From contig PMJQ01000108.1 of assembly GCA_003157485.1 (NCBI GenBank), forward strand, positions 4,325 to 53,714: a DNA stretch of 49,390 nucleotides, written 5' to 3'. This DNA is from Ignavibacteriota bacterium (GTDB lineage Bacteria; Bacteroidota; Ignavibacteria; UBA10030; UBA6906). The position numbers were made by a program, and so were the translations under genes. The notes beneath the pieces were generated by a model that worked only from the letters and a program-made list of their open reading frames with translations, was not told where the DNA came from and did no database searches. Positions 24,722-38,471 of this stretch are shown here, piece by piece; the stretch's first letter is position 1, and each line of letters starts with the position of its first letter.

Positions 24722-24749
24722 TTGACAGAGTGCAAAGAAATTGTATTCT
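24722..24749 (+). promoter_or_regulatory. promoter of the branched-chain amino acid operon
   Basis: TTGACA (24722-24727) and TATTCT (24744-24749) are separated by 16 bases. Transcription would begin near 24756, 15 bases before the leader peptide ATG and about 270 bases before ilvD. Confidence 0.65.
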
Positions 24750-24770: not shown

Positions 24771-24911
24771 ATGGGAAACAGCATACATACCGCGGCGCAT
24801 TCAGGATCCCTCTCCGGAATCCACAGCCCGGTTCTGTCTCTTTCCCTGATTCTCAATCTCCTGCTGCTTATTAGCCTCCCGAGCGTTCTGGGGCTGTTTA
24901 TTAACAGCTAA
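24771..24911 (+). CDS. ilv operon leader peptide, rich in Leu, Ile and Val
   Basis: A 46-residue open frame starts at the ATG at 24771, shortly after the promoter. It has 12 Leu, 5 Ile and 2 Val, with L-I-L-N-L-L-L-L-I at residues 26-34. Such runs of the end-product amino acids are the sensor of attenuation in ilv and leu operons: scarce Leu-, Ile- or Val-tRNA stalls the ribosome there. The run ends exactly where the first arm of the RNA stem system begins (24874), so a stalled ribosome would cover that arm. The hydrophobic peptide could instead be a small membrane protein, but its position before ilvD argues for a leader. No strong ribosome binding site precedes it. Confidence 0.75.
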   Translation: MGNSIHTAAHSGSLSGIHSPVLSLSLILNLLLLISLPSVLGLFINS

Positions 24912-25022
24912 CCGAACGCCGGAGGCCAACCAGCATATACCCCTCGTTTCACCCTAGCGGTCAAGCATGGTTCTCCTCCGGCGGGCAGGTACAATGTTTT
25001 GCATGTTTACGAGGACTGAACC
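24874..25022 (+). promoter_or_regulatory. mutually exclusive RNA stems controlling ilvD translation (attenuator)
   Basis: Arm 1 (24874-24888, inside the leader peptide) can pair with arm 2 (24914-24926): GCCTCC/GGAGGC and GCGTTC/GAACGC. Arm 2 (CGCCGGAGG at 24917-24925, plus AACC at 24928-24931) can instead pair with arm 3 (CCTCCGGCG at 24975-24983, plus GGTT at 24969-24972), about 13 pairs. Arm 3 can also pair with the ilvD ribosome binding site: GGTTCTCCTC (24969-24978) with GAGGA and GAACC (25011-25015, 25018-25022), ten pairs with a two-base bulge. A small hairpin (24893-24908) lies between. The arrangement predicts that a ribosome stalled on the Leu/Ile run masks arm 1, so that arms 2 and 3 pair and the ilvD binding site is freed. 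No T-run terminator is present, so control would be at translation. Confidence 0.6.
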
Positions 25023-25025
25023 GAC

Positions 25026-26711
25026 ATGGCCGATACGGAATCTCAAAACTACCGGAGCAGGACGATAACGCAGGGAGTCCAGCGCACTCCCAACAGGGCG
25101 ATGCTGCGCGCCGTGGGTTTCGGCGACGGCGATTTCACGAAGCCGATCGTCGGCGTCGCCAGCGCGTACAGCACAATCACCCCGTGCAACATCGGGCTGA
25201 AGGATCTTGCCGAGCGCGCGGTTGACGCTCTCCGTTCCGCCGGAACGATGCCCCAGATATTCGGGACGATCACCGTCAGTGACGGCATCTCGATGGGAAC
25301 GGAGGGGATGAAGTACTCCCTGGTGTCGCGCGAGGTGATCGCGGATTCCATCGAGACCGCATGCAACGCTCAGAGCATGGATGGCGTCCTTGTCGTGGGG
25401 GGGTGCGACAAGAACATCCCGGGGGCGATGATCGCCATCGCGCGCATGAACATTCCCGCCGTCTTTGTGTACGGCGGGACGACAAAACCCGGACATCTCC
25501 GCGGGAAAGATCTGACCGTCGTCAGCGCGTTCGAAGCGGTGGGTGAGTTCAGCGCCAGCAAGATCAGCGAAAGCGAGCTCATGGATGTCGAGAGGAGCTG
25601 CTGTCCCGGGGCGGGCTCCTGCGGCGGAATGTTCACCGCCAACACGATGTCCTCGGCGGTCGAGGCGATGGGGCTCAGCCTCATGTACTCCTCCACGATG
25701 GCGGCCGAAGATGCGGAAAAATCTGATAGTTCCGCCCGTTCCGCCGAAGTGCTCGCCCGTGCAATCCGCAACAGAATACTCCCCTCACAGATTCTCACGC
25801 GTCACGCATTCGAAAATGCAATCGCCGTCGTCATGGCGATCGGCGGCTCCACGAACGCCGTCCTCCATCTCCTTGCGATCGCCCATGCGGCGGGCGTCCC
25901 GCTCTCGATCGATGATTTTGAATCGATCCGCGCACGGGTCCCCGTGCTCTGTGACCTGAAGCCTTCGGGGCGGTTCGTTGTGACGGATTTTCACAGGGCG
26001 GGAGGAATTCCGCAGGTGATGAAGATGCTCCTCGCTCACGGAGTTTTGCACGGCAGCGCGCTGACGGTGACGGGAGAGACCGTCGAAAAGCTCCTCGGGA
26101 ATGTTCCGGATCGGCCGCAGTCAGGACAGGAAGTGATCCGCCCCTGGGAAAATCCTCTCTACAATGAGGGGCACCTTGCCGTCCTCAAGGGGAATCTCGC
26201 CACGGAAGGCGGGGTGGCAAAAATTACGGGGGTGAAGCAGCCCTCGATCACGGGTCCGGCGTGCGTGTTTGACTCGGAAGAAGCCTGCCTCGGAGCGATA
26301 CTGGAAGGGAAGATCAAAAAAGGGGACGTGATCGTGATCCGGTACGAAGGCCCCCGCGGCGGCCCGGGAATGAGGGAGATGCTGGCGCCGACTTCCGCGA
26401 TCATCGGTGCGGGACTCGGTGACTCGGTCGCATTGATCACCGACGGCCGGTTTTCCGGAGGGACGTACGGGCTTGTCGTCGGTCATGTCGCGCCGGAGGC
26501 GTACGTCGGAGGAGCGATCGCGCTCGTCCGCGAGGGGGACATGATCACCATCGACGCGCGGAAGCGCGTCCTTCATCTCGACGTCAGCGAGGCCGAACTG
26601 AAAAAGCGGAAAGACGCATGGGTGCAGCCGGAGCCCCGGTACAGGCGGGGCGTTCTCGCAAAATATGCGCGTCAGGTTTCGAGCAGCAGCACGGGCGCGG
26701 TCACAGACTGA
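25026..26711 (+). CDS. ilvD: dihydroxy-acid dehydratase
   Basis: IlvD removes water from 2,3-dihydroxy-isovalerate and 2,3-dihydroxy-3-methylvalerate, giving the keto acids for valine, leucine and isoleucine. The 561-residue length is normal for the family. Iron-sulfur cysteines are visible in T-P-C-N-I-G-L (C54), G-G-C-D-K-N (C127) and [11 protein letters not shown] (C199, with C192 and C193 beside it). The P-G-H-L-R-G and R-G-G-P-G-M-R-E-M segments are also family marks. It is the first structural gene of the operon; its ATG at 25026 has GAGGA ten bases upstream, and that site can be hidden by the leader RNA. The enzyme acts in the cytoplasm and is oxygen-sensitive in many bacteria. Confidence 0.95.
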
Positions 26712-26746: not shown

Positions 26747-28570
26747 ATGTCACGACAGGCGCACGAGGAAGAAAGCCCGGCCGCACCGGCGGGACGGCTC
26801 ATGACCGGGGCGGAGATATTCGTTCGCAGTCTCATCGCCGAGAACGTCGAGGTCCTCTTCGGCTATCCGGGGGGAGCGACGATCGGCGTCTACGACGCCC
26901 TGCACGACATCTCGGACATCAATCACGTCCTGACGCGGCACGAACAGGGGGCGACGCACGCCGCGGAAGGGTATGCCAAAGCGACGGGGAAACCCGGCGT
27001 CGTTCTTGTCACATCCGGGCCCGGCGCGACGAACACGGTCACCGGCATCGCGGATGCGATGATGGATTCGATACCGCTTGTCGTTTTTACAGGGCAGGTC
27101 CCGCTCCGCCTCATCGGGAACGACGCGTTCCAGGAGGCGGACATCGTCGGCATCACGCGTCCGGTCACGAAGCACAACTACCTCGTGCGTGACGTCCGCG
27201 AGCTGGCGCAGACGATCAAGGAAGCGTTCTACATTGCCCTGAGCGGGCGCCCGGGCCCGGTCCTCATCGATCTCCCGAAGGACGTCATGGCCCAGAAGAC
27301 CACCTTCGATTATCCCGGGAGCGTCACGCTGAGAAATTACGCTCCCATACTCGACGGGAACCTCCGGCAGATCAGGAAAGCCGCGGAGGTGATAAACGCG
27401 GCAAGCAGGCCGGTCCTGTACGTGGGAGGGGGAGCGATCCTCTCCAACGCCGCTCCGGAGCTGACGGCGCTTGCGCGGAAGCTCCGCTGTCCGGTGACGA
27501 CGACGCTGCACGGGCTCGGGTCGTTCCCCGAGAACGACCCGCTCGCCATGGGGATGCTCGGCATGCACGGCACATGGTATTCCAACATGGCGGTCCATTT
27601 CTGCGACGTCCTCATCGCCGTCGGCGCCCGGTTCGACGACAGGGTCACCGGCAACGTGGATGCGTTTGCCGCAGAGGCGAAGAAGATTCACATCGATATT
27701 GATCCGTCCGCCATCAGCAAAAACGTCAAAGTCGACGTCCCGATCGTCGGCGATGTGAAGCGGGTGCTCGCCGCGCTCCAGGATCTGGTCAACCCCCTGG
27801 AGACGAAGGACTGGCTCCGGACGATCGACGCCTGGAAGGACGAGCATCCCCTCCGCTACAGGAACGGGGAGGAGATCCGTGCGCAGTACGTCATCCAGAA
27901 GCTGGGGGAGATCACGGAGGGGAATGCCATCGTCGTCACGGACGTGGGGCAGCACCAGATGTGGGCCGCGCAGTTCTTCAACTTTGCCCATCCCCGCACG
28001 CACATCACCTCCGGCGGCCTCGGCACGATGGGGTTTTCGCTCCCCGCCGCCATGGGGGCGGTGTTCGGCCGCAGGGATCTCCCTGTCATTTCGATAAGCG
28101 GCGACGGTGGCTTCCAGATGAACAGCCAGGAGATGGCGACGATCGTCCAGCACCGCCTCCCTCTCAAGATATTCGTCATCAACAACGGCTTCCTCGGCAT
28201 GGTCCGGCAGTGGCAGGAGCTGTTCTGGCGGCGGCGGTACTCGCAGGTCGAGCTCGCGAACCCGGATTTCGTGCGCCTTGCGGAGGCGTACGGCTGCACG
28301 GCCTTCCGCGCCACGCGCACCTCCGAGGTGGAGGACGTCCTGCGCAAGGCGATGGCGCACACGGACGGCCCGGTGTTTGCCGAGTTCGTCGTCGCGAAAG
28401 AGGACAACGTCTACCCGATGATCCCCGCGGGGCAGACGATCAATGAGATGATCGATACGCCCGATCCCGTCCCGGGGGGCCGCAACGGCTCCGGAGACGC
28501 AATCGCCACTGTGGAAAAAGGAAAAGCCAGAAAGGTAAGCGTTCATGCCCATGTCCCAAGCAATGCTTAA
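26747..28570 (+). CDS. ilvB: acetolactate synthase, large catalytic subunit
   Basis: This 607-residue thiamine-diphosphate enzyme joins two pyruvates to acetolactate, or pyruvate and 2-ketobutyrate to acetohydroxybutyrate, the first common step of valine, leucine and isoleucine synthesis. E66 in T-R-H-E-Q is the cofactor-activating Glu. G-D-G-G-F-Q-M-N-S-Q-E and the later N-N-G-F-L-G-M-V-R-Q-W form the ThDP/metal motif. F-G-Y-P-G-G near residue 38 opens the fold. The ATG at 26747 has GGAGGG upstream; the frame opens earlier, but only by running into ilvD. The 3' end overlaps ilvN, which suggests coupled translation of the two subunits. Confidence 0.95.
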   Translation: MSRQAHEEESPAAPAGRLMTGAEIFVRSLIAENVEVLFGYPGGATIGVYDALHDISDINHVLTRHEQGATHAAEGYAKATGKPGVVLVTSGPGATNTVTGIADAMMDSIPLVVFTGQVPLRLIGNDAFQEADIVGITRPVTKHNYLVRDVRELAQTIKEAFYIALSGRPGPVLIDLPKDVMAQKTTFDYPGSVTLRNYAPILDGNLRQIRKAAEVINAASRPVLYVGGGAILSNAAPELTALARKLRCPVTTTLHGLGSFPENDPLAMGMLGMHGTWYSNMAVHFCDVLIAVGARFDDRVTGNVDAFAAEAKKIHIDIDPSAISKNVKVDVPIVGDVKRVLAALQDLVNPLETKDWLRTIDAWKDEHPLRYRNGEEIRAQYVIQKLGEITEGNAIVVTDVGQHQMWAAQFFNFAHPRTHITSGGLGTMGFSLPAAMGAVFGRRDLPVISISGDGGFQMNSQEMATIVQHRLPLKIFVINNGFLGMVRQWQELFWRRRYSQVELANPDFVRLAEAYGCTAFRATRTSEVEDVLRKAMAHTDGPVFAEFVVAKEDNVYPMIPAGQTINEMIDTPDPVPGGRNGSGDAIATVEKGKARKVSVHAHVPSNA

Positions 28571-29093
28571 CACGCAGGCGCCCGGCCCCGCCGACGAGAA
28601 GGTCAAGAGGCACACGATCTCGATTCTCGTGCAGAACAAGTTCGGGGCCTTTAACAGGATCGCCGGCCTGTTCGCGGCGAAAGGGTACAACATCGACAGC
28701 CTGAGCGTCGGACCGACGGAGGACGAGGGGGTGTCCCGTATGACGATTGTTGCGCGCGGGGATGATCAGATCATCGAACAGATCACGAAACAGCTGAACA
28801 AGCTCATCGACATCGTCAAGGTGATCGACCTGACGTTCGAGAGCTTCGTCGACAGGGAACTTGTCCTTGTCAAGGTCCATTCGACGAACGACACGCGCCC
28901 CGAGATCATGCAGATCGCGGAGATCTTCCGCGCGAAGGTCGTTGACATCAGCCCGAAAACCCTCACGCTGGAGGCCACCGGGAGCCAGCAGAAGGTCGAT
29001 GCGATTATCAAGATGCTGAAGCCCTTCGCCATCAAGGAGATGGCCCGCACGGGACGGGTCGCACTGAAGCGCGAGTTCCAGGGGGAGGTATGA
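28545..29093 (+). CDS. ilvN: acetolactate synthase, small regulatory subunit
   Basis: The 182-residue protein has the N-terminal ACT domain ([20 protein letters not shown]) that binds valine for feedback inhibition, and the C-terminal domain that activates the catalytic subunit. The ACT residues and length match IlvH/IlvN. The start at 28545 overlaps the end of ilvB by 26 bases; M7 at 28563 is an alternative that would overlap by eight. The stop overlaps the next gene's start (ATGA). The subunit should join IlvB in the cytoplasm and set the rate of the whole pathway. Confidence 0.93.
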
Positions 29094-30124
29094 TCATCGT
29101 TATGCAGCCGGGGGCCTCCCGGGAACAGGTCGAGCACGTGTTCGAGCAGGTGCGCACGCTCGGCTACCAGGTGCATCCGATCTACGGAGAGCAGAGGACT
29201 GTGATCGCCTGCGTCGGCGACGAGCGGGGGAAATCGCGCCTCCAGGCACTGGATGTCCTCAGCGGCGTCGAGAGCGTTGTCCCCATACTGAAGCCCTACA
29301 AGCTGGCCAGCACGGACTGGAAGCCGGAGAGGACGACGATCAGGCTGGGAGAGGCGGGGTCGCCGGGGTCGGTCACGGTCGGCAACAACCACTTCATCGT
29401 CATGGCGGGACCCTGTTCAGTCGAGAGCCGCGAGCAGATACTGGCGGTTGCGGAGGAGGTCAAGAAGTCGGGGGCGAAAGTCCTCCGGGGCGGGGCGTTC
29501 AAGCCCAGGAGCTCTCCCTACAGCTTCCAGGGGCTCGAGGAGGAGGGACTCCGGCTGCTCGCAGAAGCGAGGGAGAAGACGGGCCTCTTCATCATTACCG
29601 AGGTGATCACACCCACGGACGTCCCCTTGGTGGCGGATTACGCGGACATACTCCAGATCGGCGCGCGCAACATGCAGAATTATGCGCTCCTGAAGGAGGT
29701 GGGCAAGGTACGAAAGCCGGTTGTCCTGAAGCGGGGGATGGCGAACACGGTGAAGGACCTCCTCCTCTCGGCGGAATACATCATGTCGCAGGGGAATTAC
29801 GAGGTGATCCTCTGCGAGCGCGGGATACGGACGTTTGAAGACTACACACGGAACACCTGCGATCTCTCGGCGGTCCCCGCGGTCCACGAGACGAGCCATC
29901 TCCCGATCATCGTCGATCCCAGTCACGGCACCGGCGTCCGGAGCCTCGTCACGCCGATTGCGAAGGCCGCGGTTGCCGCAGGCGCGGACGGTCTGATCAT
30001 CGAAGTCCACCCGAAACCCGAGGAGGCGTTCTCCGATGGGGCCCAGTCGCTGACACCCGCCGGGTTCGCCGACCTGATGGCGTGGGTGAAGAAACTCATT
30101 GACGTGGAAGGCAGAATACTTTAA
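29090..30124 (+). CDS. aroF: 3-deoxy-7-phosphoheptulonate (DAHP) synthase, type I-beta
   Basis: The 344-residue enzyme condenses phosphoenolpyruvate and erythrose 4-phosphate, the first step of the shikimate pathway. An N-terminal ferredoxin-like regulatory domain (about 1-70, [10 protein letters not shown] onward) precedes the barrel with [38 protein letters not shown] and D-P-S-H-G-T-G. These are the substrate- and metal-binding motifs of the type I-beta class. The start overlaps the ilvN stop by four bases (ATGA), so it is a true operon member between ilvN and leuA. An aromatic-pathway enzyme inside a branched-chain operon is unusual and may link the two by shared control. Feedback by Tyr is typical of this domain layout, but is not shown here. 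Confidence 0.93.
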
Positions 30125-30137
30125 GGAGAGCATTGCC

Positions 30138-31700
30138 ATGAACGACCGCATTATCGTGTTCGACACAACGCTCCGCGACGGGGAGCAGTCGCCCGGGTGC
30201 AGCATGAACGTGGATGAAAAACTGCGCATGGCCCGGCAGCTCGAACGCCTGAACGTCGACGTGATCGAGGCGGGATTCCCCGTCGCCTCTTCCGGGGATT
30301 TCGAGGCTGTCCGCATGATCGCGGGAACCGTCGAACGCTCATCGGTCGCGGGGCTCTCGCGGGCCATGGCGGGAGACATCGACAGGACGTGGGAAGCGAT
30401 CCGCGGCGCACGCAGGCCCCGCATCCATACGTTCATCGCCACGTCCGACATTCATCTCGCGCACAAACTCAAGAAGACGCGGGAACAGGTTTTGAAGGAT
30501 TCGGTCGAGGCGGTGAAGTATGCCAGGAGCCTCTGCAGCGACGTCGAGTTCTCCTGCGAGGACGCCTCGCGGACCGACATCGGATTCCTGTGCGAGATCG
30601 CCGCAGCGGTGATCGCAGCCGGTGCCACGGTTCTCAATCTTCCCGATACGGTCGGCTACGCGATCCCCGCGGAATACGGCGCCATGTTCAGGGCGATCCG
30701 GGAGCGTGTGGGGGATCTGGGCGGGGCGGTCCTCAGCGCTCACTGTCACAATGATCTCGGCATGGCGGTGGCCAACACGCTCGCGGCGATCGAAAACGGG
30801 GCGCGCCAGGTCGAGTGCACCGTCAACGGCATCGGCGAACGCGCGGGGAACGCGGCGCTGGAGGAGATCGTCCTTGCCCTCAAGGTCCGTGCCGAACGAC
30901 TCGGCGTCGTGACGGGGGTCGATGCCGGGGAGATCTACCGTTCCTCCAGGCTCCTGTCGAGTCTCACAGGGATGCAGGTGCAGAGGAACAAAGCGATCGT
31001 GGGGGCGAACGCGTTCTCCCATGAAGCCGGCATCCATCAGGACGGGATGTTGAAGAGTGCAATCACGTACGAGATCATGACGCCGCAGTCGGTCGGCATC
31101 AAACACAGCACGCTCGTGCTGGGGAAACATTCCGGCCGGCACGCTCTCAGGCAGCGCTATGCGGAACTCGGGTTCGATCTGACGGACGGCGAGCTCGAGA
31201 AGGCATACGCCGGGTTCACGTCGATCGCGGACCAGAAGAAGGAAATATTCGACGAGGAGCTTATCGCGATCCTCGAATCGGGAACGCACGGCTCGGAACA
31301 GGACTACCAGCTCATCGGGCTGCACGTCAGCACGGGGACGAGCGTCCGCCCCACGGCCACCGTGGAGCTCAAGACGGGTGAGGAACGGATGGTCGACTCC
31401 GCCACCGGGGACGGCCCTGTGGACGCCATGTACCGGGCCATGGAACGGCTGACGGGGATCGTCGGAAAACTCCTCGAGTACTCGCTCAAGTCGGTGAGCA
31501 TCGGCCACGACACCGTGGGTGAAGTGTTCGTGCGCGTGGAATTCGACGGCGTCCAGTACAACGGGAGAGCGGTGAGCACCGACGTGATCACCGGCAGCGC
31601 ACGGGCCTACCTCGAAGCGATGAACAGGGCGCTGAACGTGCGCAAACGCAAGGAGGGGCGCGCGAAAGAGGCGATCGCGCTCGCGGCCTCGGTCCTGTGA
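30138..31700 (+). CDS. leuA: 2-isopropylmalate synthase
   Basis: LeuA condenses acetyl-CoA with 2-ketoisovalerate, committing carbon to leucine. The 520 residues include the catalytic barrel with [12 protein letters not shown] at the N-terminus, S-A-H-C-H-N-D-L-G (metal site) and [10 protein letters not shown]. The C-terminal LeuA dimer or regulatory domain (about 390-505) is the site of leucine feedback in the family. The ATG at 30138 has AAGGAG about eight bases upstream; the frame opens 39 bases earlier inside aroF. It is distinguished from the cimA gene downstream by E-Q-S-P-G in place of T-Q-R-E-G. Confidence 0.95.
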
Positions 31701-31728
31701 CGATGATCTCAAGGGAGGAAGTACGCCG

Positions 31729-33141
31729 ATGAACGCGCCGAAGCCGAAAACCCTTTTTGAAAAGGTGTGGGAGTCGCACGTTGTGCACCAGGAACCGGAG
31801 GCTCCCGCCGTCCTCTATATCGACCTCCACCTGGTTCATGAAGTCACATCCCCCCAGGCGTTCGCCGGGCTCCGTTCCCGCGGGCTCACGGTGCGGAGGC
31901 CCGGGAGGACCGTCGCCACGGTCGACCACAGCATCCCCACGGGGGATCCGTCTCTGCCGCTCACCGACCCGCTCGCCTCAAAGCAGATCGCGCAGATGGA
32001 GGAAAATGCCCGCCGGGGGGGCATACGGTTTTTCGGAATGTCGAGCGCGGGCCGCGGGATCGTCCACGTCATCGGTCCCGAGCTCGGGCTCACGCATCCG
32101 GGAATGACCGTCGTCTGCGGGGACAGTCACACATCGACGCACGGCGCTTTCGGTGCGCTCGCCTTCGGCATCGGGACGAGCGAGGTGGAACACGTGCTGG
32201 CGACGCAGTGCCTGCTGCAGCGCCGGCCCGGTGTGTTTGAAATCCGGATCGAGGGGAAGCGGGGGCCCGGCGTCACGGCAAAGGATATCGTGCTTGCGCT
32301 CCTCGCACGGATTGGCGTCGGAGGGGGGACAGGACACGTGTTCGAATACACGGGCCCGGCGGTCGGTGCGCTCTCGATGGAGGAGCGGATGACGATATGC
32401 AATATGTCCATCGAGGGGGGCGCACGGGCGGGGATGATGGCGCCGGATGACACGACGTTTGAATACATCGCCGGGAGGGAATTCTCGCCGCGCGGCGAGG
32501 AGTGGGACCGTGCAGTGGCCGGATGGCGGGCCCTTCCGACCGACGACGGGGCGGTTTTTGACAGGTCACTGACGCTCGATATCTCGGACCTGTCGCCGAT
32601 GATCACGTTCGGGACGAATCCCGGCATGGGTCTGGCGGTGGGCGGCCCCGTCCCGCGGCCTGAGGACGTCAAAGACCCCTCGCAAAGGTCGGCGCTCAGG
32701 AAGGCGCTGGAGTACATGAACCTGACCCCGGGCGAGCCCCTCCTCGGCCGTCCGGTCAACGTCGTCTTCATCGGGAGCTGCACGAACGGGCGCCTCTCCG
32801 ATCTGCGTCTTGCGGCCTCGGTTCTCCGCGGGCGGAAGGTCGACCCCGCCGTACGCGTGCTCGTCGTTCCCGGATCGCAGGCGGTGAAGCGCCAGGCGGA
32901 GGCGGAAGGGCTTGACAGGGTATTCACGTCGGCCGGTGCGGAATGGCGCGAAGCCGGATGCTCGATGTGCATCGCGATGAATGGCGACCAGCTCTCGCCG
33001 GGCCAGTACGCTGTCAGCACGAGCAACAGGAATTTCGAGGGACGGCAGGGAAAGGGAGGCAGGACGTTTCTGGCTTCACCGCTGACGGCGGCGGCGAGCG
33101 CTGTGACCGGCAAAATCACCGACGTCCGGACGCTTTCATAG
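31729..33141 (+). CDS. leuC: 3-isopropylmalate dehydratase, large subunit
   Basis: The 470-residue subunit carries the catalytic [4Fe-4S] cluster. Family cysteines are in F-I-G-S-C-T-N-G-R and the late [14 protein letters not shown] and [12 protein letters not shown] are other active-site marks. It isomerises 2- and 3-isopropylmalate with LeuD, and also acts on citramalate to make methylmalate in the CimA route, so one enzyme serves both leucine and isoleucine. GGGAGGA precedes the ATG. The leuD gene follows 14 bases later. The enzyme is cytoplasmic. Confidence 0.95.
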
Positions 33142-33155
33142 GAAGGAACAGGCTC

Positions 33156-33749
33156 ATGGAGAAATTCACCCGGTTCTCGTCGCGTGTCGTCCCGCTCCTG
33201 GTGGACAACATCGACACCGATCAGATCATACCGGCCCGGTTCCTCAAGGTGACGGACAAGCAGGGGCTGGGAGACAACCTGTTTGCGGACTGGCGGTTCA
33301 ATGCCGACGGCACGCCCCGGCCCGATTTTGTCCTGAACATGCCCGCGCACCGGGGGGCGCAGATCCTTCTTGCGGGAGACAACTTCGGGTGCGGTTCATC
33401 GCGCGAACACGCTCCCTGGGCGCTTGCGGGATTCGGTTTCCGGGTCGTGATCAGCACCTCGTTTGCCGATATTTTTTCAAACAACGCAATGAAAAACAGC
33501 ATCCTCCCCCTTGCGCTGGCCGCGGGAGACCATGCCCGGCTCGCCGCACTTCTCGGCGCGGACCCCCGCACGGAGCTGACGGTCGACCTCCCGTCACAGG
33601 CCCTTCTCGTTCCGGGAGGGGCCGCGATGCGGTTCCCCATTGACGGTTTCGCAAAGACCTGTCTTCTGAACGGCGTGGATGAACTCGGGTACCTGTTCCG
33701 GTTTACGGAGGAGATCGAGGCGTTCGAACGTACAACATCGCGGAGTTGA
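33156..33749 (+). CDS. leuD: 3-isopropylmalate dehydratase, small subunit
   Basis: The 197-residue protein is the swivelling domain partner of LeuC. It shows [13 protein letters not shown] and [16 protein letters not shown], the substrate-recognition loop of the family. The ATG at 33156 gives the normal length and has GGAAGGA upstream; the frame is open for another 213 bases inside leuC, but that part is a shadow. It should form the isomerase with LeuC for both leucine and citramalate-derived intermediates. Confidence 0.95.
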
Positions 33750-33752
33750 GAG

Positions 33753-35309
33753 ATGCGCGTCCAGGTGTACGACACGACGTTGCGCGACGGCACGCAGAGG
33801 GAGGGGATATCGCTCTCGTGTGACGACAAGCTCAGGATCGCCAGGAAGCTGGACGACCTGGGCGTTGCATTCATCGAAGGCGGGTGGCCCGGCTCGAACC
33901 CCAAGGACGTCGAGTTCTTTTCCCGCGCGAAGGACGTCCGCTGGAATCACGCCGTGATCACGTCGTTCGGCTCCACGTGCCGCGTCGGCGGCCGGCCGGA
34001 GGAGGACCCCAATATTGCCGCGCTCATCGATTCGGCGACAACCGTGTGCGCTCTCGTCGGGAAGACCTCCCTGTTTCACGTCAGGGAAGTTCTGAGGACC
34101 GATGCGAAGGAAAACCTACGGATCATCCGCGAGAGCACGGCGTATCTCGTCGGGCGGGGACGGAGGGTGTTTTACGACGCCGAGCATTTCTTCGACGGGT
34201 TCAAGCTCGACGCGGAATACGCGCTGGAGACGCTCCGCGCCGCTTCCGGAGGCGGGGCGGAGGTTCTCGTTCTCTGTGATACGAACGGGGGGACGATGCC
34301 GTGGGAGATTGCGGAAATCGTCTCCCGCGTCCGGGAGGCCGTGGACGTCCCCCTGGGGATCCACACGCACAATGACGCGGAGTGTGCCGTGGCGAACTCC
34401 CTTGCGGCGGTGCGCGGGGGATGCATCCAGGTGCAGGGGACGATCAACGGCTACGGCGAACGATGCGGAAACGCGAACCTCGTTTCGGCGATCGCAGATC
34501 TCACGCTCAAGCTCCGCATGGAATGTCTCCCGGAGGGGAACCTGGCGCGCCTCACCGAGACCGCCCACTACGTCGCCGAAATCGCCAATCTCTCGCCGGA
34601 CGCCCACCTTGCCTATGTCGGGAAATCGGCGTTCGCACACAAGGGGGGAATCCACGTCGCGGCCATACGGCGGAACCCCGATTCGTACCAGCATGTCGAT
34701 CCCGCACTTGTGGGAAACACGATGCGGGTCGTCGTGTCGGAGCTCTCCGGGCGCGCGAACATCGTCAGCAAGTCCGAGGAATTCGGGTTTGTCAACGTCG
34801 ACACGGGGAGGATCAGCCAGGTTCTGGATCAGATCAAAGCCCTGGAGGCGAAAGGGTTCTCCTTCGAGGCGGCGGAAGCGTCGGTCGCGCTCATGATGCA
34901 GCGGCAGCAGGAGAACTACGCCCCCCCCTTCACGCTCATCGACCTCACGGTGAACGTCGAGCACAGGGAGGGGAGGGGGATATTCGCGGAGGCGACGGTC
35001 AAGTTGAACGTCGGAGGGAACGTCCTCCACACGGTGGCGGAGGGAAACGGCCCGGTCAACGCGCTCGACACCGCGGTCAGAAAGGCCCTGACGCCCGTGT
35101 ACCCGAAGCTCTCCGGGTTCCGGCTCGCAGACTACAAGGTGAGGATCCTCGACGGCGGGAGCGGGACCGCCGCAACGACGCGCGTTCTCATAGAGACGAG
35201 AAACGGAACGCGCAGGTGGAGCACCGTCGGCGCGAGCGCCAACATCATCGAGGCGAGCTGGCGCGCCCTTTCCGACAGCATTGAATACGGGCTGACAACG
35301 ACGTCCTGA
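33753..35309 (+). CDS. cimA: citramalate synthase
   Basis: CimA condenses pyruvate and acetyl-CoA to (R)-citramalate, which LeuCD and LeuB turn into 2-ketobutyrate for isoleucine. This bypasses threonine deaminase. The 518 residues include D-T-T-L-R-D-G-T-Q-R-E-G, F-D-A-type barrel strands, I-H-T-H-N-D-A-E-C-A-V-A-N-S and G-Y-G-E-R-C-G-N-A-N, all diagnostic of the CimA branch and not of LeuA. A C-terminal dimer domain (about 395-510) probably senses isoleucine. It starts three bases after leuD. Its place between leuD and leuB is what one expects if the isoleucine branch is made by this operon. Confidence 0.94.
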   Translation: MRVQVYDTTLRDGTQREGISLSCDDKLRIARKLDDLGVAFIEGGWPGSNPKDVEFFSRAKDVRWNHAVITSFGSTCRVGGRPEEDPNIAALIDSATTVCALVGKTSLFHVREVLRTDAKENLRIIRESTAYLVGRGRRVFYDAEHFFDGFKLDAEYALETLRAASGGGAEVLVLCDTNGGTMPWEIAEIVSRVREAVDVPLGIHTHNDAECAVANSLAAVRGGCIQVQGTINGYGERCGNANLVSAIADLTLKLRMECLPEGNLARLTETAHYVAEIANLSPDAHLAYVGKSAFAHKGGIHVAAIRRNPDSYQHVDPALVGNTMRVVVSELSGRANIVSKSEEFGFVNVDTGRISQVLDQIKALEAKGFSFEAAEASVALMMQRQQENYAPPFTLIDLTVNVEHREGRGIFAEATVKLNVGGNVLHTVAEGNGPVNALDTAVRKALTPVYPKLSGFRLADYKVRILDGGSGTAATTRVLIETRNGTRRWSTVGASANIIEASWRALSDSIEYGLTTTS

Positions 35310-35321
35310 ACGAAAGAGCGC

Positions 35322-36389
35322 ATGAAAGCAGCCATCATACTTCTCCCGGGGGACGGGATCGGTCCGGAGGTGACCGGTGCGGCGCGCAGCGTCCTGGATC
35401 GCGTCGCGCAGATGCGGGGGCACGAATTCAGTTTCACGACACACCGTATCGGGGGATGCTCCATCGACGCATCCGGAGTCGCACTGACGAAGGAAGTCCT
35501 CGAGTCCTGTGCGCGGGCGGACGCAGTGCTTCTCGGAGCGGTCGGGGGCCCGAAGTGGGATAACCCCGGGGCGGCCGTCAGGCCCGAGCAGGGCCTCCTG
35601 GCGCTGCGCAAGGGGCTCGGGCTCTACGCAAATCTGAGGCCCGTCAGGCCCCACGCCCGGCTTCTCGACGCGTCCCCGATCAAGCCGGACCACCTCAAAG
35701 GGGTCGATCTCCTCGTGCTGAGGGAGCTGACCGGAGGGCTCTATTTCGGGATGCCGCGCGGCCGGGACGAGGTCGATGGCCGGCTCCGCGCGTTCGACAC
35801 GATGGAGTATTACGAGTACGAGATCAGGCGCATCCTTGTTCTGGCCTTCCGCCTCGCCGGGGGGAGGCGGAAGAAGGTCACGTCGGTGGACAAGGCGAAT
35901 ATCCTCGAGACGTCCCGCCTCTGGCGGGCGACCGCCGCCGACGTCGCTCGGGATTTCCCCGGCGTCACGCTCGAGAACATGCTCGTGGACACTGCGGCGA
36001 TGCGGCTCATTGCGCAGCCCGCGGGATTCGACGTCCTCGTGACGGAAAACATGTTCGGCGACATACTGACGGACGAGGCGTCCGTGCTTGCGGGCTCGAT
36101 GGGCCTCCTCCCCTCGGCCTCGATCGGGGAATCCGGCCCCGGCCTGTACGAGCCGATACACGGCTCCGCCCCCGACATCGCCGGAAAAGGCATCGCCAAT
36201 CCGGTGGGGGCGATACTGAGCGCGGCGCTCCTCCTCCGGCATTCGCTCGGCCTGGAGGCCGAAGCGCAGGCGGTCGAGCGGGCGGTGGACCGGGCTATTG
36301 CCGACGGATTCCGCACGGCGGACATACGGGGCTCCGGAAGCACGGAAGCGGTCACCGGAGGTGTGGTGGAGAGGATAACTTTCATTTAG
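35322..36389 (+). CDS. leuB: 3-isopropylmalate dehydrogenase
   Basis: The 355-residue NAD-dependent enzyme oxidises and decarboxylates 3-isopropylmalate, and in the CimA route 3-methylmalate. Family motifs are [52 protein letters not shown] and H-G-S-A-P-D-I-A-G. The R-E-L-T-G-G-x-Y-F-G form is the LeuB type, not isocitrate dehydrogenase. It is cytoplasmic and follows cimA by 12 bases. Confidence 0.95.
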
Positions 36390-36401
36390 AGAGGCGGTCC
36401 G

Positions 36402-37361
36402 ATGGGGATGGAATCGACATATGTCTGGATGAACGGCGAGCTCGTGGACTACGCTCATGCGACTGTGCATTTTCTCACCCCGGCGCTTCACTACGGGGCG
36501 GGAGTATTCGAAGGCATACGGTGCTACGACACGGAGCGGGGTCCGGCGGTTTTCCGGCTGGAGGACCATATTGAACGGCTCCTAAAGTCGGCGCACGTGT
36601 TCGGGTTCCGCCCTCTCCCCTGGTCGGCGGAAGAACTCGCCGGGGCGGCATCCCGTACGGTCGCCGCAAACGGATTCCGCGAGTGCTACATCAGGCCGCT
36701 TGTGTATCTCTCGGGCGGAGGGTGGAACCTGAATGTCGACATGGGTGAACCGGCCGTCGGGATCGCCGTATGGGAGTGGAAGAACTATCTCGGCGCCGAG
36801 GCCCGTGAACGGGGGGTCCGCGCGAATATCTCGTCGTTCACCCGCCATCATCCGAACGTGATGATGACGAAGGCCAAGATCAGCGGGAATTATGCAAACA
36901 GTTTTCTGGCGAAAACCGAGTCGGTCCGGCTCGGCTTCGAGGAGGCGATAATGCTCGACCCCCAGGGATATGTCGCAGAATGCACGGGGGAGAACATCTT
37001 CGTGGTCAGGAAAGGGGCGATACTCACGCCGTCGCTCGCTCCTGTCCTTGAGGGGATAACGCGCGATTCCGTCGTCACGCTCGCCCGCGATGCGGGGTAC
37101 GAGGTTGCGGAAGGGCCTGTCTCGCGCGATCAGCTTTATGGTGCGGATGAGGTTTTCGTCTGCGGAACGGCATCCGAGGTCATCGGGCTTCGCGAGATCG
37201 ATTTCCGGGCCATCGGGTCGGGAACGACGGGCCCCGTGACGCGGGCGCTGCAGACGGCGTTTCACTCTGCGGTGCACGGGACAGGCCGCCGCTCGGCGGA
37301 GTGGCTCCGCTGTGTCGGGGATCCCGGAAATCTCGCCCTCAGAAAAACAGGCACGGATTGA
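36402..37361 (+). CDS. ilvE: branched-chain amino acid aminotransferase (operon copy)
   Basis: The 319-residue PLP enzyme of fold type IV adds the amino group to the keto acids of Val, Leu and Ile. The cofactor Lys is K159 in T-K-A-K-I-S-G-N-Y-A-N-S. L-H-Y-G-A-G-V-F-E-G-I-R near residue 29, E-A-I-M-L-D and E-C-T-G-E-N-I-F-V-V further on are the expected signatures. C-G-T-A-S-E-V is the phosphate-binding end. The C-terminal tail (about 295-319) is longer than usual and not conserved-looking. A second homologue lies at 45478-46458 outside the operon. Confidence 0.94.
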   Translation: MGMESTYVWMNGELVDYAHATVHFLTPALHYGAGVFEGIRCYDTERGPAVFRLEDHIERLLKSAHVFGFRPLPWSAEELAGAASRTVAANGFRECYIRPLVYLSGGGWNLNVDMGEPAVGIAVWEWKNYLGAEARERGVRANISSFTRHHPNVMMTKAKISGNYANSFLAKTESVRLGFEEAIMLDPQGYVAECTGENIFVVRKGAILTPSLAPVLEGITRDSVVTLARDAGYEVAEGPVSRDQLYGADEVFVCGTASEVIGLREIDFRAIGSGTTGPVTRALQTAFHSAVHGTGRRSAEWLRCVGDPGNLALRKTGTD

Positions 37362-37409
37362 ACAGGTTCGTCAACTGCAACCACAACACAGGTCAAGGAG
37401 AACGGAAGA

Positions 37410-38471
37410 ATGGCGCTCATTGATTTCGGCGGTGTCCGGGAAGAGGTTGTCACGCGTGAGGAGTTCACGCTCGCAAAAGCGCGGGACGTGCTGGGGAAAG
37501 AAGTTGTCGCGATCATCGGTTACGGTCCCCAGGGGCACGGTCAGTCGCTGAACCTGCGTGACAACGGCGTGAATGTCGTGATCGGCCAGCGGAAGGGGGG
37601 GAAAGGCTGGAGCGACGCAGTGCGGGACGGCTGGGTGGAGGGAAAGACCCTCTTTGAGGACATCGAGGAAGCCGTGAGGCGCGGGACAATCGTGCAGATC
37701 CTCCTTTCCGACGCCGGGCAGAAAGAACAGTGGCCCAGGATTCTGAAGAATCTGAAAAAGGGGCAGGCGCTCTGTTTCTCGCACGGGTTCTCGGTCGTGT
37801 TCCGCGATCAGACGGGGGTCGTTCCGCCGAAGGACGTCGACGTGTTCCTCGTCGCCCCGAAAGGCGCCGGACGCACCGTGCGGACGAATTTCCTGGCCGG
37901 GAGCGGGATCAACTCCAGTTTTGCGGTCTTCCAGGATGCAACGGGGAAGGCTGCCGAGAGGGTGACGGCGTTCGGAGTGGCCATCGGGTCGGGATACCTG
38001 TTCCCGACGACGTTCGAGAAAGAAGTGCTGAGCGATCTGACGGGGGAGCGCGGCGTTCTGATGGGGGCGATCGCGGGACTCATGAAAGCGCAGTACGAAA
38101 CGCTCCGCGCGATGGGGCACTCCCCCAGCGAGGCGTTCAACGAAACCGTAGAGGAAGCGACGCAGTCCCTCTATCCCCTCATCGGTGCGAACGGGATGGA
38201 CTGGATGTTCGCCTCCTGCAGCACAACGGCGCAGCGGGGTGCGCTCGACTGGTCGAAGAGGTTTGAGACCGCTGCACGCCCCCTGTTCGAGCTCCTCTAC
38301 AGGGATGTGAGCGAAGGGGTGGAGTCGCGCCGGGTCCTTGACACGTGCAGCGCCCCTGACTACCGGGAGAAGCTCGAGGTGGAGCTCGGGGTCTGGCGGA
38401 ATTCGGAGATGTGGAAGGCAGGGGCTGCGGTGCGGTCCCTCCGGCCCGAAAACTGGAAGAAAAAAGGATAA
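37410..38471 (+). CDS. ilvC: ketol-acid reductoisomerase
   Basis: The 353-residue enzyme rearranges and reduces acetolactate and acetohydroxybutyrate with NAD(P)H. I-I-G-Y-G-P-Q-G-H-G-Q-S-L-N-L-R-D-N-G (about residues 35-53) is the cofactor loop. The C-terminal knotted domain shows the metal-binding acidic residues in D-L-T-G-E-R and E-E-A-T-Q-S. It is slightly longer than standard class I enzymes of about 330-340 residues. It is the last gene of the operon, 48 bases after ilvE, with AAGGAG before the ATG. A strong hairpin follows the stop. Confidence 0.94.
   Translation: MALIDFGGVREEVVTREEFTLAKARDVLGKEVVAIIGYGPQGHGQSLNLRDNGVNVVIGQRKGGKGWSDAVRDGWVEGKTLFEDIEEAVRRGTIVQILLSDAGQKEQWPRILKNLKKGQALCFSHGFSVVFRDQTGVVPPKDVDVFLVAPKGAGRTVRTNFLAGSGINSSFAVFQDATGKAAERVTAFGVAIGSGYLFPTTFEKEVLSDLTGERGVLMGAIAGLMKAQYETLRAMGHSPSEAFNETVEEATQSLYPLIGANGMDWMFASCSTTAQRGALDWSKRFETAARPLFELLYRDVSEGVESRRVLDTCSAPDYREKLEVELGVWRNSEMWKAGAAVRSLRPENWKKKG

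Follow-up and report, generated by a model that had tools for sequence, protein, structure and literature searches.

Organization of the ilvD locus

The DNA analyzed here, in the following termed the window, is a stretch of 49,390 nucleotides from an Ignavibacteriota bacterium (GenBank assembly GCA_003157485.1, contig PMJQ01000108.1), and the genes and elements of the locus described below are all located on its forward strand. The gene ilvD (25026–26711), identified by the Pfam domain ILVD_EDD, encodes dihydroxy-acid dehydratase and has its ATG at 25026. It is followed on the same strand, with short or overlapping junctions, by ilvB, ilvN, a DAHP synthase gene, leuA, leuC, leuD, cimA, leuB, ilvE, and ilvC (26747–38471), giving a presumed operon of eleven genes and about 13 kb. 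The junctions ilvB/ilvN and ilvN/DAHP synthase are overlapping ones. The operon genes represent the complete pathway to leucine, isoleucine (through citramalate), and valine, i.e., to all three amino acids proposed to be sensed by the leader described below. The DAHP synthase gene (29090–30124) belongs to the aromatic pathway and is embedded in the branched-chain operon, with ilvN on one side and leuA on the other. A T9SS sorting domain is encoded upstream, which is indicative of the Bacteroidota group.

Upstream of ilvD, a leader peptide ORF of 46 codons extends from 24771 to 24911, including the stop codon TAA at 24909–24911; its translation, taken from the sequence and the ORF list, is MGNSIHTAAHSGSLSGIHSPVLSLSLILNLLLLISLPSVLGLFINS. 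The control codons (24846–24902), as read from the sequence, comprise a Leu/Ile run at residues 26–34 (LILNLLLLI, 24846–24872) and further Leu, Val, and Ile codons at residues 36, 39, 40, 42, and 44, which run through arm 1 of the RNA structure described below nearly to the stop codon. An earlier note on this DNA had placed this Leu/Ile run just before arm 1 (24874), and both the run, which ends at 24872, and the leader frame were found as described there. The combined share of Leu, Ile, and Val amounts to 43% in the leaders collected in this study vs. 22% in the genes of the window. Frame and tract are conserved across the order, the tract in its amino acid class rather than in its exact sequence and at a constant distance to arm 2 and the stop codon. 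An evident Shine–Dalgarno (SD) sequence was not found at the leader start. Most leader ORFs carry a CATA[CT][CA]GC motif, corresponding to His-Thr/Ile-Ala in the peptide, about 15 bases into the frame (24786–24794 in the window). Ile codons in the leaders are mostly ATT (131 ATT vs. 54 ATC), whereas the genes of the window show 38 ATT vs. 183 ATC, a comparison that is not a clean test given the different GC content of the relatives.

A sigma70-type promoter, TTGACA-16-TATTCT (24722–24749; 10 of 12 matches, 0.2 expected in shuffled sequences), predicts a transcript start at about 24756, some 15 bases upstream of the leader ORF. A promoter of this type is found at the same position directly upstream of the leader in 28 of 31 leaders, and this conservation argues against transcripts that would start downstream of 24983.

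Competing helices between the leader and ilvD

Four segments of the leader mRNA can form mutually exclusive pairings: arm 1 (24874–24888), arm 2 (24914–24931), arm 3 (24969–24983), and the ilvD SD region (25011–25022, arm 4), which contains GAGGA and GAACC. Helix 1:2, the protector hairpin, is formed by GCCTCC (24874–24879) with GGAGGC (24921–24926) and GCGTTC (24883–24888) with GAACGC (24914–24919). Helix 2:3 consists of CGCCGGAGG (24917–24925) paired with CCTCCGGCG (24975–24983) and AACC (24928–24931) paired with GGTT (24969–24972). In helix 3:SD, GGTTC (24969–24973) pairs with GAACC (25018–25022) and TCCTC (24974–24978) with GAGGA (25011–25015), which amounts to ten pairs with a two-base bulge. 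The sequestering stem-loop is predicted to be closed by a short hairpin located between arm 3 and the SD region (24980–25007; 24980–24989 with 24998–25007), and visual inspection showed similar hairpins in several relatives. Within the order, sequence conservation in the 2:3 hairpin's internal loop (GC-ACA-CC / GG-UNAA-GC; 24932–24966) goes further than base pairing would demand (alignments A1 and A5).

The earlier note had claimed that arm 2 pairs with either arm 1 or arm 3 and that arm 3 alternatively forms ten pairs with the SD region, and it had suggested calculating the energies of the three folds as a check. The sequence bears out the arms at these positions as well as both sets of pairings, and the calculation gave −31.6 kcal/mol for the 1:2 hairpin (z −5.5, none of 200 shuffles as stable), −28.9 kcal/mol for the 2:3 hairpin (z −5.3, none of 200), and −19.5 kcal/mol for the 3:SD hairpin (z −2.2, 3 of 200), with dinucleotide shuffles serving as reference. 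The 1:2 hairpin is longer than the earlier note had stated because the segment 24889–24913 folds inside it as well.

Distribution of the element

IlvD was detected in 28 of 60 near genomes, and in 20 of the 28 loci examined, the window included, a leader with the arms is located at the same place before ilvD; 19 of these were caught by the filters, and one (L013) was recognised by its arms. The element is absent before ilvD in some IlvD-bearing genomes of the order (L006, L007, L019–L022, L025, and L029), of which L006, L007, and L019–L022 belong to family f5. A covariance model built from 18 of the 20 leader loci (R1) matched in 45 of the 98 genomes of the order, and a second one built from 36 sequences (R2) in 47 of the 98. 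The sites in the order are mostly located before ilvD, including genes for a second IlvD type that is 44% identical. A common filter, composed of a Leu/Ile/Val-rich ORF, the 2:3 helix, and arm 3 pairing near the start codon, was passed by 28 of 44 leaders of the order vs. none of 80 ilvD upstream regions from elsewhere.

The same leader with its arms also precedes gltB, encoding glutamate synthase, in five genomes (L143, L148, L149, L150, and L154); the identity of this target gene was checked with Pfam on L143, and the gltB leaders are rich in Ile, Leu, Thr, and Pro. Six weaker sites lie before ilvB. They belong to family f5 (L155–L160), and in some genomes of that family the position of this weaker related leader before ilvB looks like a shift of the control point to another gene of the pathway. 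A site before cimA (L161) has the arms with no evident leader tract and is an uncertain member. No leader accompanies two weak R1 matches (L162 and L163), which were discarded as chance hits.

In family f43, which belongs to another class of the phylum, a related element is located before ilvB in 14 genomes. The GCCAGAGG / CCTCTGGC arms recur in it, its leader is rich in Ile and Leu, and its arm 3–SD pairing is mostly shorter. The internal loop sequence of the 2:3 hairpin is missing from this version; the CATA[CT][CA]GC motif is present in some f43 leaders, e.g., in L176. In a low-GC genome of the same class as the window (L172, match 1501–1623), a Leu/Ile/Val leader with alternative hairpins precedes ilvD, and these hairpins differ in sequence (arm GCTAGGGATC / GATCCCTA); this version has perhaps evolved independently or diverged strongly.

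Outside these groups, no comparable leader or arm motif was seen at the 80 ilvD loci, which come nearly all from other phyla (mostly Cyanobacteria and Proteobacteria), and a search with R1 of 20 whole genomes from this set gave one weak match, a stretch of Leu codons without arms. Plasmid records contained no similar DNA. Neither the window nor six relatives gave a match to Rfam models, T-box and riboswitches included, at gathering thresholds, and at E≤10 nothing meaningful appeared, the sole match being a small RNA at chance level (E=2.4).

Covariation of the three helices

The earlier note had named beforehand the conservation of the leader frame and of the arm pairings in close relatives as the point on which its proposal could fail. 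The comparison did not refute the proposal: leader frame and tract have been retained in many genera, together with helices 1:2, 2:3, and 3:SD, and covariation is seen across them. Since relatedness among the sequences limits what such tests prove, permutations were confined to families in a swap test, in which duplex energies of a sequence's own arms were compared with those of arms permuted within the family for 25 representatives. Own arms paired more stably than permuted ones for 1:2 (−17.23 vs. −15.68 kcal/mol, p=0.0005), 2:3 (−19.90 vs. −18.96 kcal/mol, p=0.00125), and 3:SD (−14.28 vs. −13.06 kcal/mol, p=0.00025). With one sequence per genus, the corresponding values were p=0.0038, 0.0028, and 0.00005.

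In a MAFFT alignment of 29 leaders, paired cells make up 95.4% for helix 2:3, whose covariation score exceeds that of all shuffles; helix 1:2 is weaker, being paired in 79% of the aligned cells. Within 1:2, a Ser/Asn codon of the leader (AGC/AAC) covaries with C/U in arm 2 (11 AU, 9 GC, and 3 GU pairs), exchanges between AAC and AGC being matched by GTT/GC in arm 2. Compensatory changes in 3:SD include GTTCACC/GGTGAAC (L125) vs. GTTCGCC/GGCGAAC (L134), AGTC/GACT in L133, and an eight-pair helix CAAGGTTC/GAACCTTG in L135.

Folding states and proposed mechanism

Leader mRNAs were folded in three states, namely without a ribosome, with one stalled nine codons upstream of the stop codon, and with one at the stop codon itself. 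To represent the ribosome in the latter two states, the RNA was masked from its 5′ end to the 15th base after the first base of the A-site codon. The predicted unpaired fraction of the SD in the window is 0.02 without a ribosome, 0.63 in the stalled state, and 0.02 at the stop. Averaged over 40 leaders, the predicted values are 0.25, 0.47, and 0.26, respectively, and the stalled state is predicted to be more open than the stop state in 37 of the 40; for roughly one leader in three, stalling is predicted to open the SD only slightly. In the window, two bases separate the leader stop from arm 2, and in the relatives the stop is close to arm 2 as well. A ribosome that terminates there should therefore sit on arm 2, whereas stalling at nearly any point of the tract leaves arm 2 accessible.

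The covariation, the folding states, and the absence of a terminator at the sequestering hairpin are together read as translational attenuation that is switched on in starvation, and it is very probable that the element is a ribosome-mediated translational attenuator that senses charged Leu/Ile/Val tRNA and controls the branched-chain operon via ilvD translation. We infer that the leader is translated, that ribosomes stall within it, and that ilvD translation responds. In starved cells, a ribosome would stall in the Leu/Ile/Val codons and cover arm 1, so that arm 2 could capture arm 3 and the ilvD SD would be exposed. In fed cells, the ribosome would get to the stop at 24909–24911 and cover arm 2, leaving arm 3 to pair with the SD. 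In the absence of leader translation, 1:2 would form and arm 3 would again take the SD, so that ilvD, as the directly controlled gene, would likewise be off. The effect would spread to the downstream genes by translational coupling or polarity. The attenuation at the level of translation proposed in the earlier note is thus supported by the kept frame and tract, the covarying helices, and the lack of a terminator, with the mechanism itself put forward here as a model. Direct reinitiation from the leader stop to ilvD is considered unlikely, as the two are 114 bases apart.

Alternative and additional readings

Polarity is a known route by which an effect on a proximal gene reaches distal genes of an operon. 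Blocked ilvD translation might expose the mRNA to Rho, with loss of distal transcription rather than reduced ilvD translation as the main output. In favor of such Rho attenuation, ilvD is the only directly sequestered gene in the presumed operon of about 13 kb, and polarity would be a natural route to ilvC, but the overlapping junctions permit translational coupling too. We regard this as unlikely to be the main output, and since the SD switch would still have to act first, it extends the proposed mechanism more than it competes with it. Slightly less probable is an addition to codon sensing, in which the internal loop of 2:3 serves as a second sensor for a ligand, a protein, or a tRNA, so that two signals would act on one translational switch that also governs gltB.

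Quite improbable is a version in which control is translational and a protein, tRNA, or metabolite binding to the 2:3 hairpin is the sensor itself, the leader ORF mattering little. The conservation of the internal loop fits this idea, as does the binding protein proposed for the actinobacterial LEU element, where codon mutations were without effect on regulation (PMC1262725). The tract, however, is kept by class and at a constant distance to arm 2 and the stop, as codon sensing requires, the 1:2 helix covaries inside the ORF, and the f43 version keeps the leader without having the internal loop sequence.

A classical transcriptional attenuator, in which one of the hairpins acts as an intrinsic terminator before ilvD when amino acids are plentiful, is highly improbable: its layout of leader peptide and alternative hairpins is the one seen here (PMC10272879), and several relatives have T-rich stretches between arm 3 and the SD, but these begin more than 10 bases past the 2:3 hairpin or sit in a loop, the sequestering helix ends only a few bases before the start codon, which leaves no room for a U-tract behind it, the terminator-like sites in the window are near chance (2 found vs. 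0.7 expected) and both inside the leader ORF, and 2:3 as terminator would make stalling turn the operon off, which is the wrong direction. A search for an intrinsic terminator with a U-tract at the sequestering helix before ilvD found none, in agreement with the earlier note, which had described the element as free of a T-run terminator and as different from the enterobacterial ilv attenuators. The mutually exclusive hairpins of the transcriptional ilv attenuators are present, whereas their terminator is not, and the element is therefore not a member of that group.

Comparison with known systems

By analogy, the translational attenuator proposed here resembles a cross between an ilv attenuator, as the sensor, and an erm attenuator, as the output. 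In antibiotic-resistance attenuators of the ermC type, the pairing is rearranged by a ribosome stalled on the leader, and the SD of the following gene becomes accessible. The present element likewise has an SD that one fold hides and the other leaves open (predicted 0.02 vs. 0.63 unpaired in the window, with covariation of 3:SD). In contrast to the ermC type, where stalling involves a drug and the nascent peptide, the element would respond to uncharged Leu/Ile/Val tRNA, and its target is biosynthesis. Mycobacterial polycysteine leaderless ORFs, in the 2020 account by Canestrari (cited in PMC9031893), reportedly mediate cysteine-responsive attenuation at the level of translation by a short upstream ORF without a classical terminator. 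They concern cysteine, other genes, and another phylum. Vitreschak et al. are said to have predicted transcription attenuators in Bacteroidetes/Chlorobi in 2004.

Transcription attenuation of ilvBNC by leader peptides with a terminator has been established or proposed in Corynebacterium and other groups (PMC10272879; PMC11857589), and a Flavobacterium transcriptome gave clues for leader-peptide transcription attenuation before amino acid operons (PMC9723704). The element shares with the enterobacterial attenuators and those of Corynebacterium ilvBNC (ilvB-II motif) a Leu/Ile/Val leader before a branched-chain operon and the selection of a hairpin by ribosome position (PMC10272879; PMC11857589). 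It differs in the off state, which in the ilv attenuators is an intrinsic terminator with a U-tract and here a hairpin without U-tract that would hide the SD. The LEU element before leuA in Actinobacteria likewise has Leu codons in a leader peptide and a target gene SD that is engaged in pairing. There, however, the SD is bound by the Leu codons themselves, at the foot of a pseudoknot, and codon mutations were reported not to fit attenuation (PMC1262725); here, the SD pairs with a separate arm 3. Pairing of the Leu codon run with the SD was not found in the window, where the fold pairs the SD with arm 3, downstream of the ORF. In the arginine leader rbfL of Staphylococcus aureus, an amino acid-sensing leader also acts on translation initiation of the next gene; there, the binding site is occluded directly by the ribosome that pauses at the Arg codons, and expression falls, whereas here stalling is predicted to raise expression via RNA switching (PMC13009471). 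A studied example of an element of the present kind in this lineage was not found in the open literature, and an earlier description elsewhere is possible.

Significance

The textbook form of leader-peptide control of amino acid operons is transcription attenuation. The comparative evidence collected here points to the ribosome logic of an attenuator acting on the translation start of a complete branched-chain operon, and its conservation in dozens of related genomes suggests that the operon would be switched on at the level of translation when leucine, isoleucine, or valine is short. It follows as a prediction that altered control codons should change translation and not termination. The element recurs before ilvD, ilvB, and gltB, and a second class of the phylum has it as well; it therefore defines a searchable RNA family, and through the gltB sites, a small regulon would tie glutamate synthesis to branched-chain amino acid starvation.
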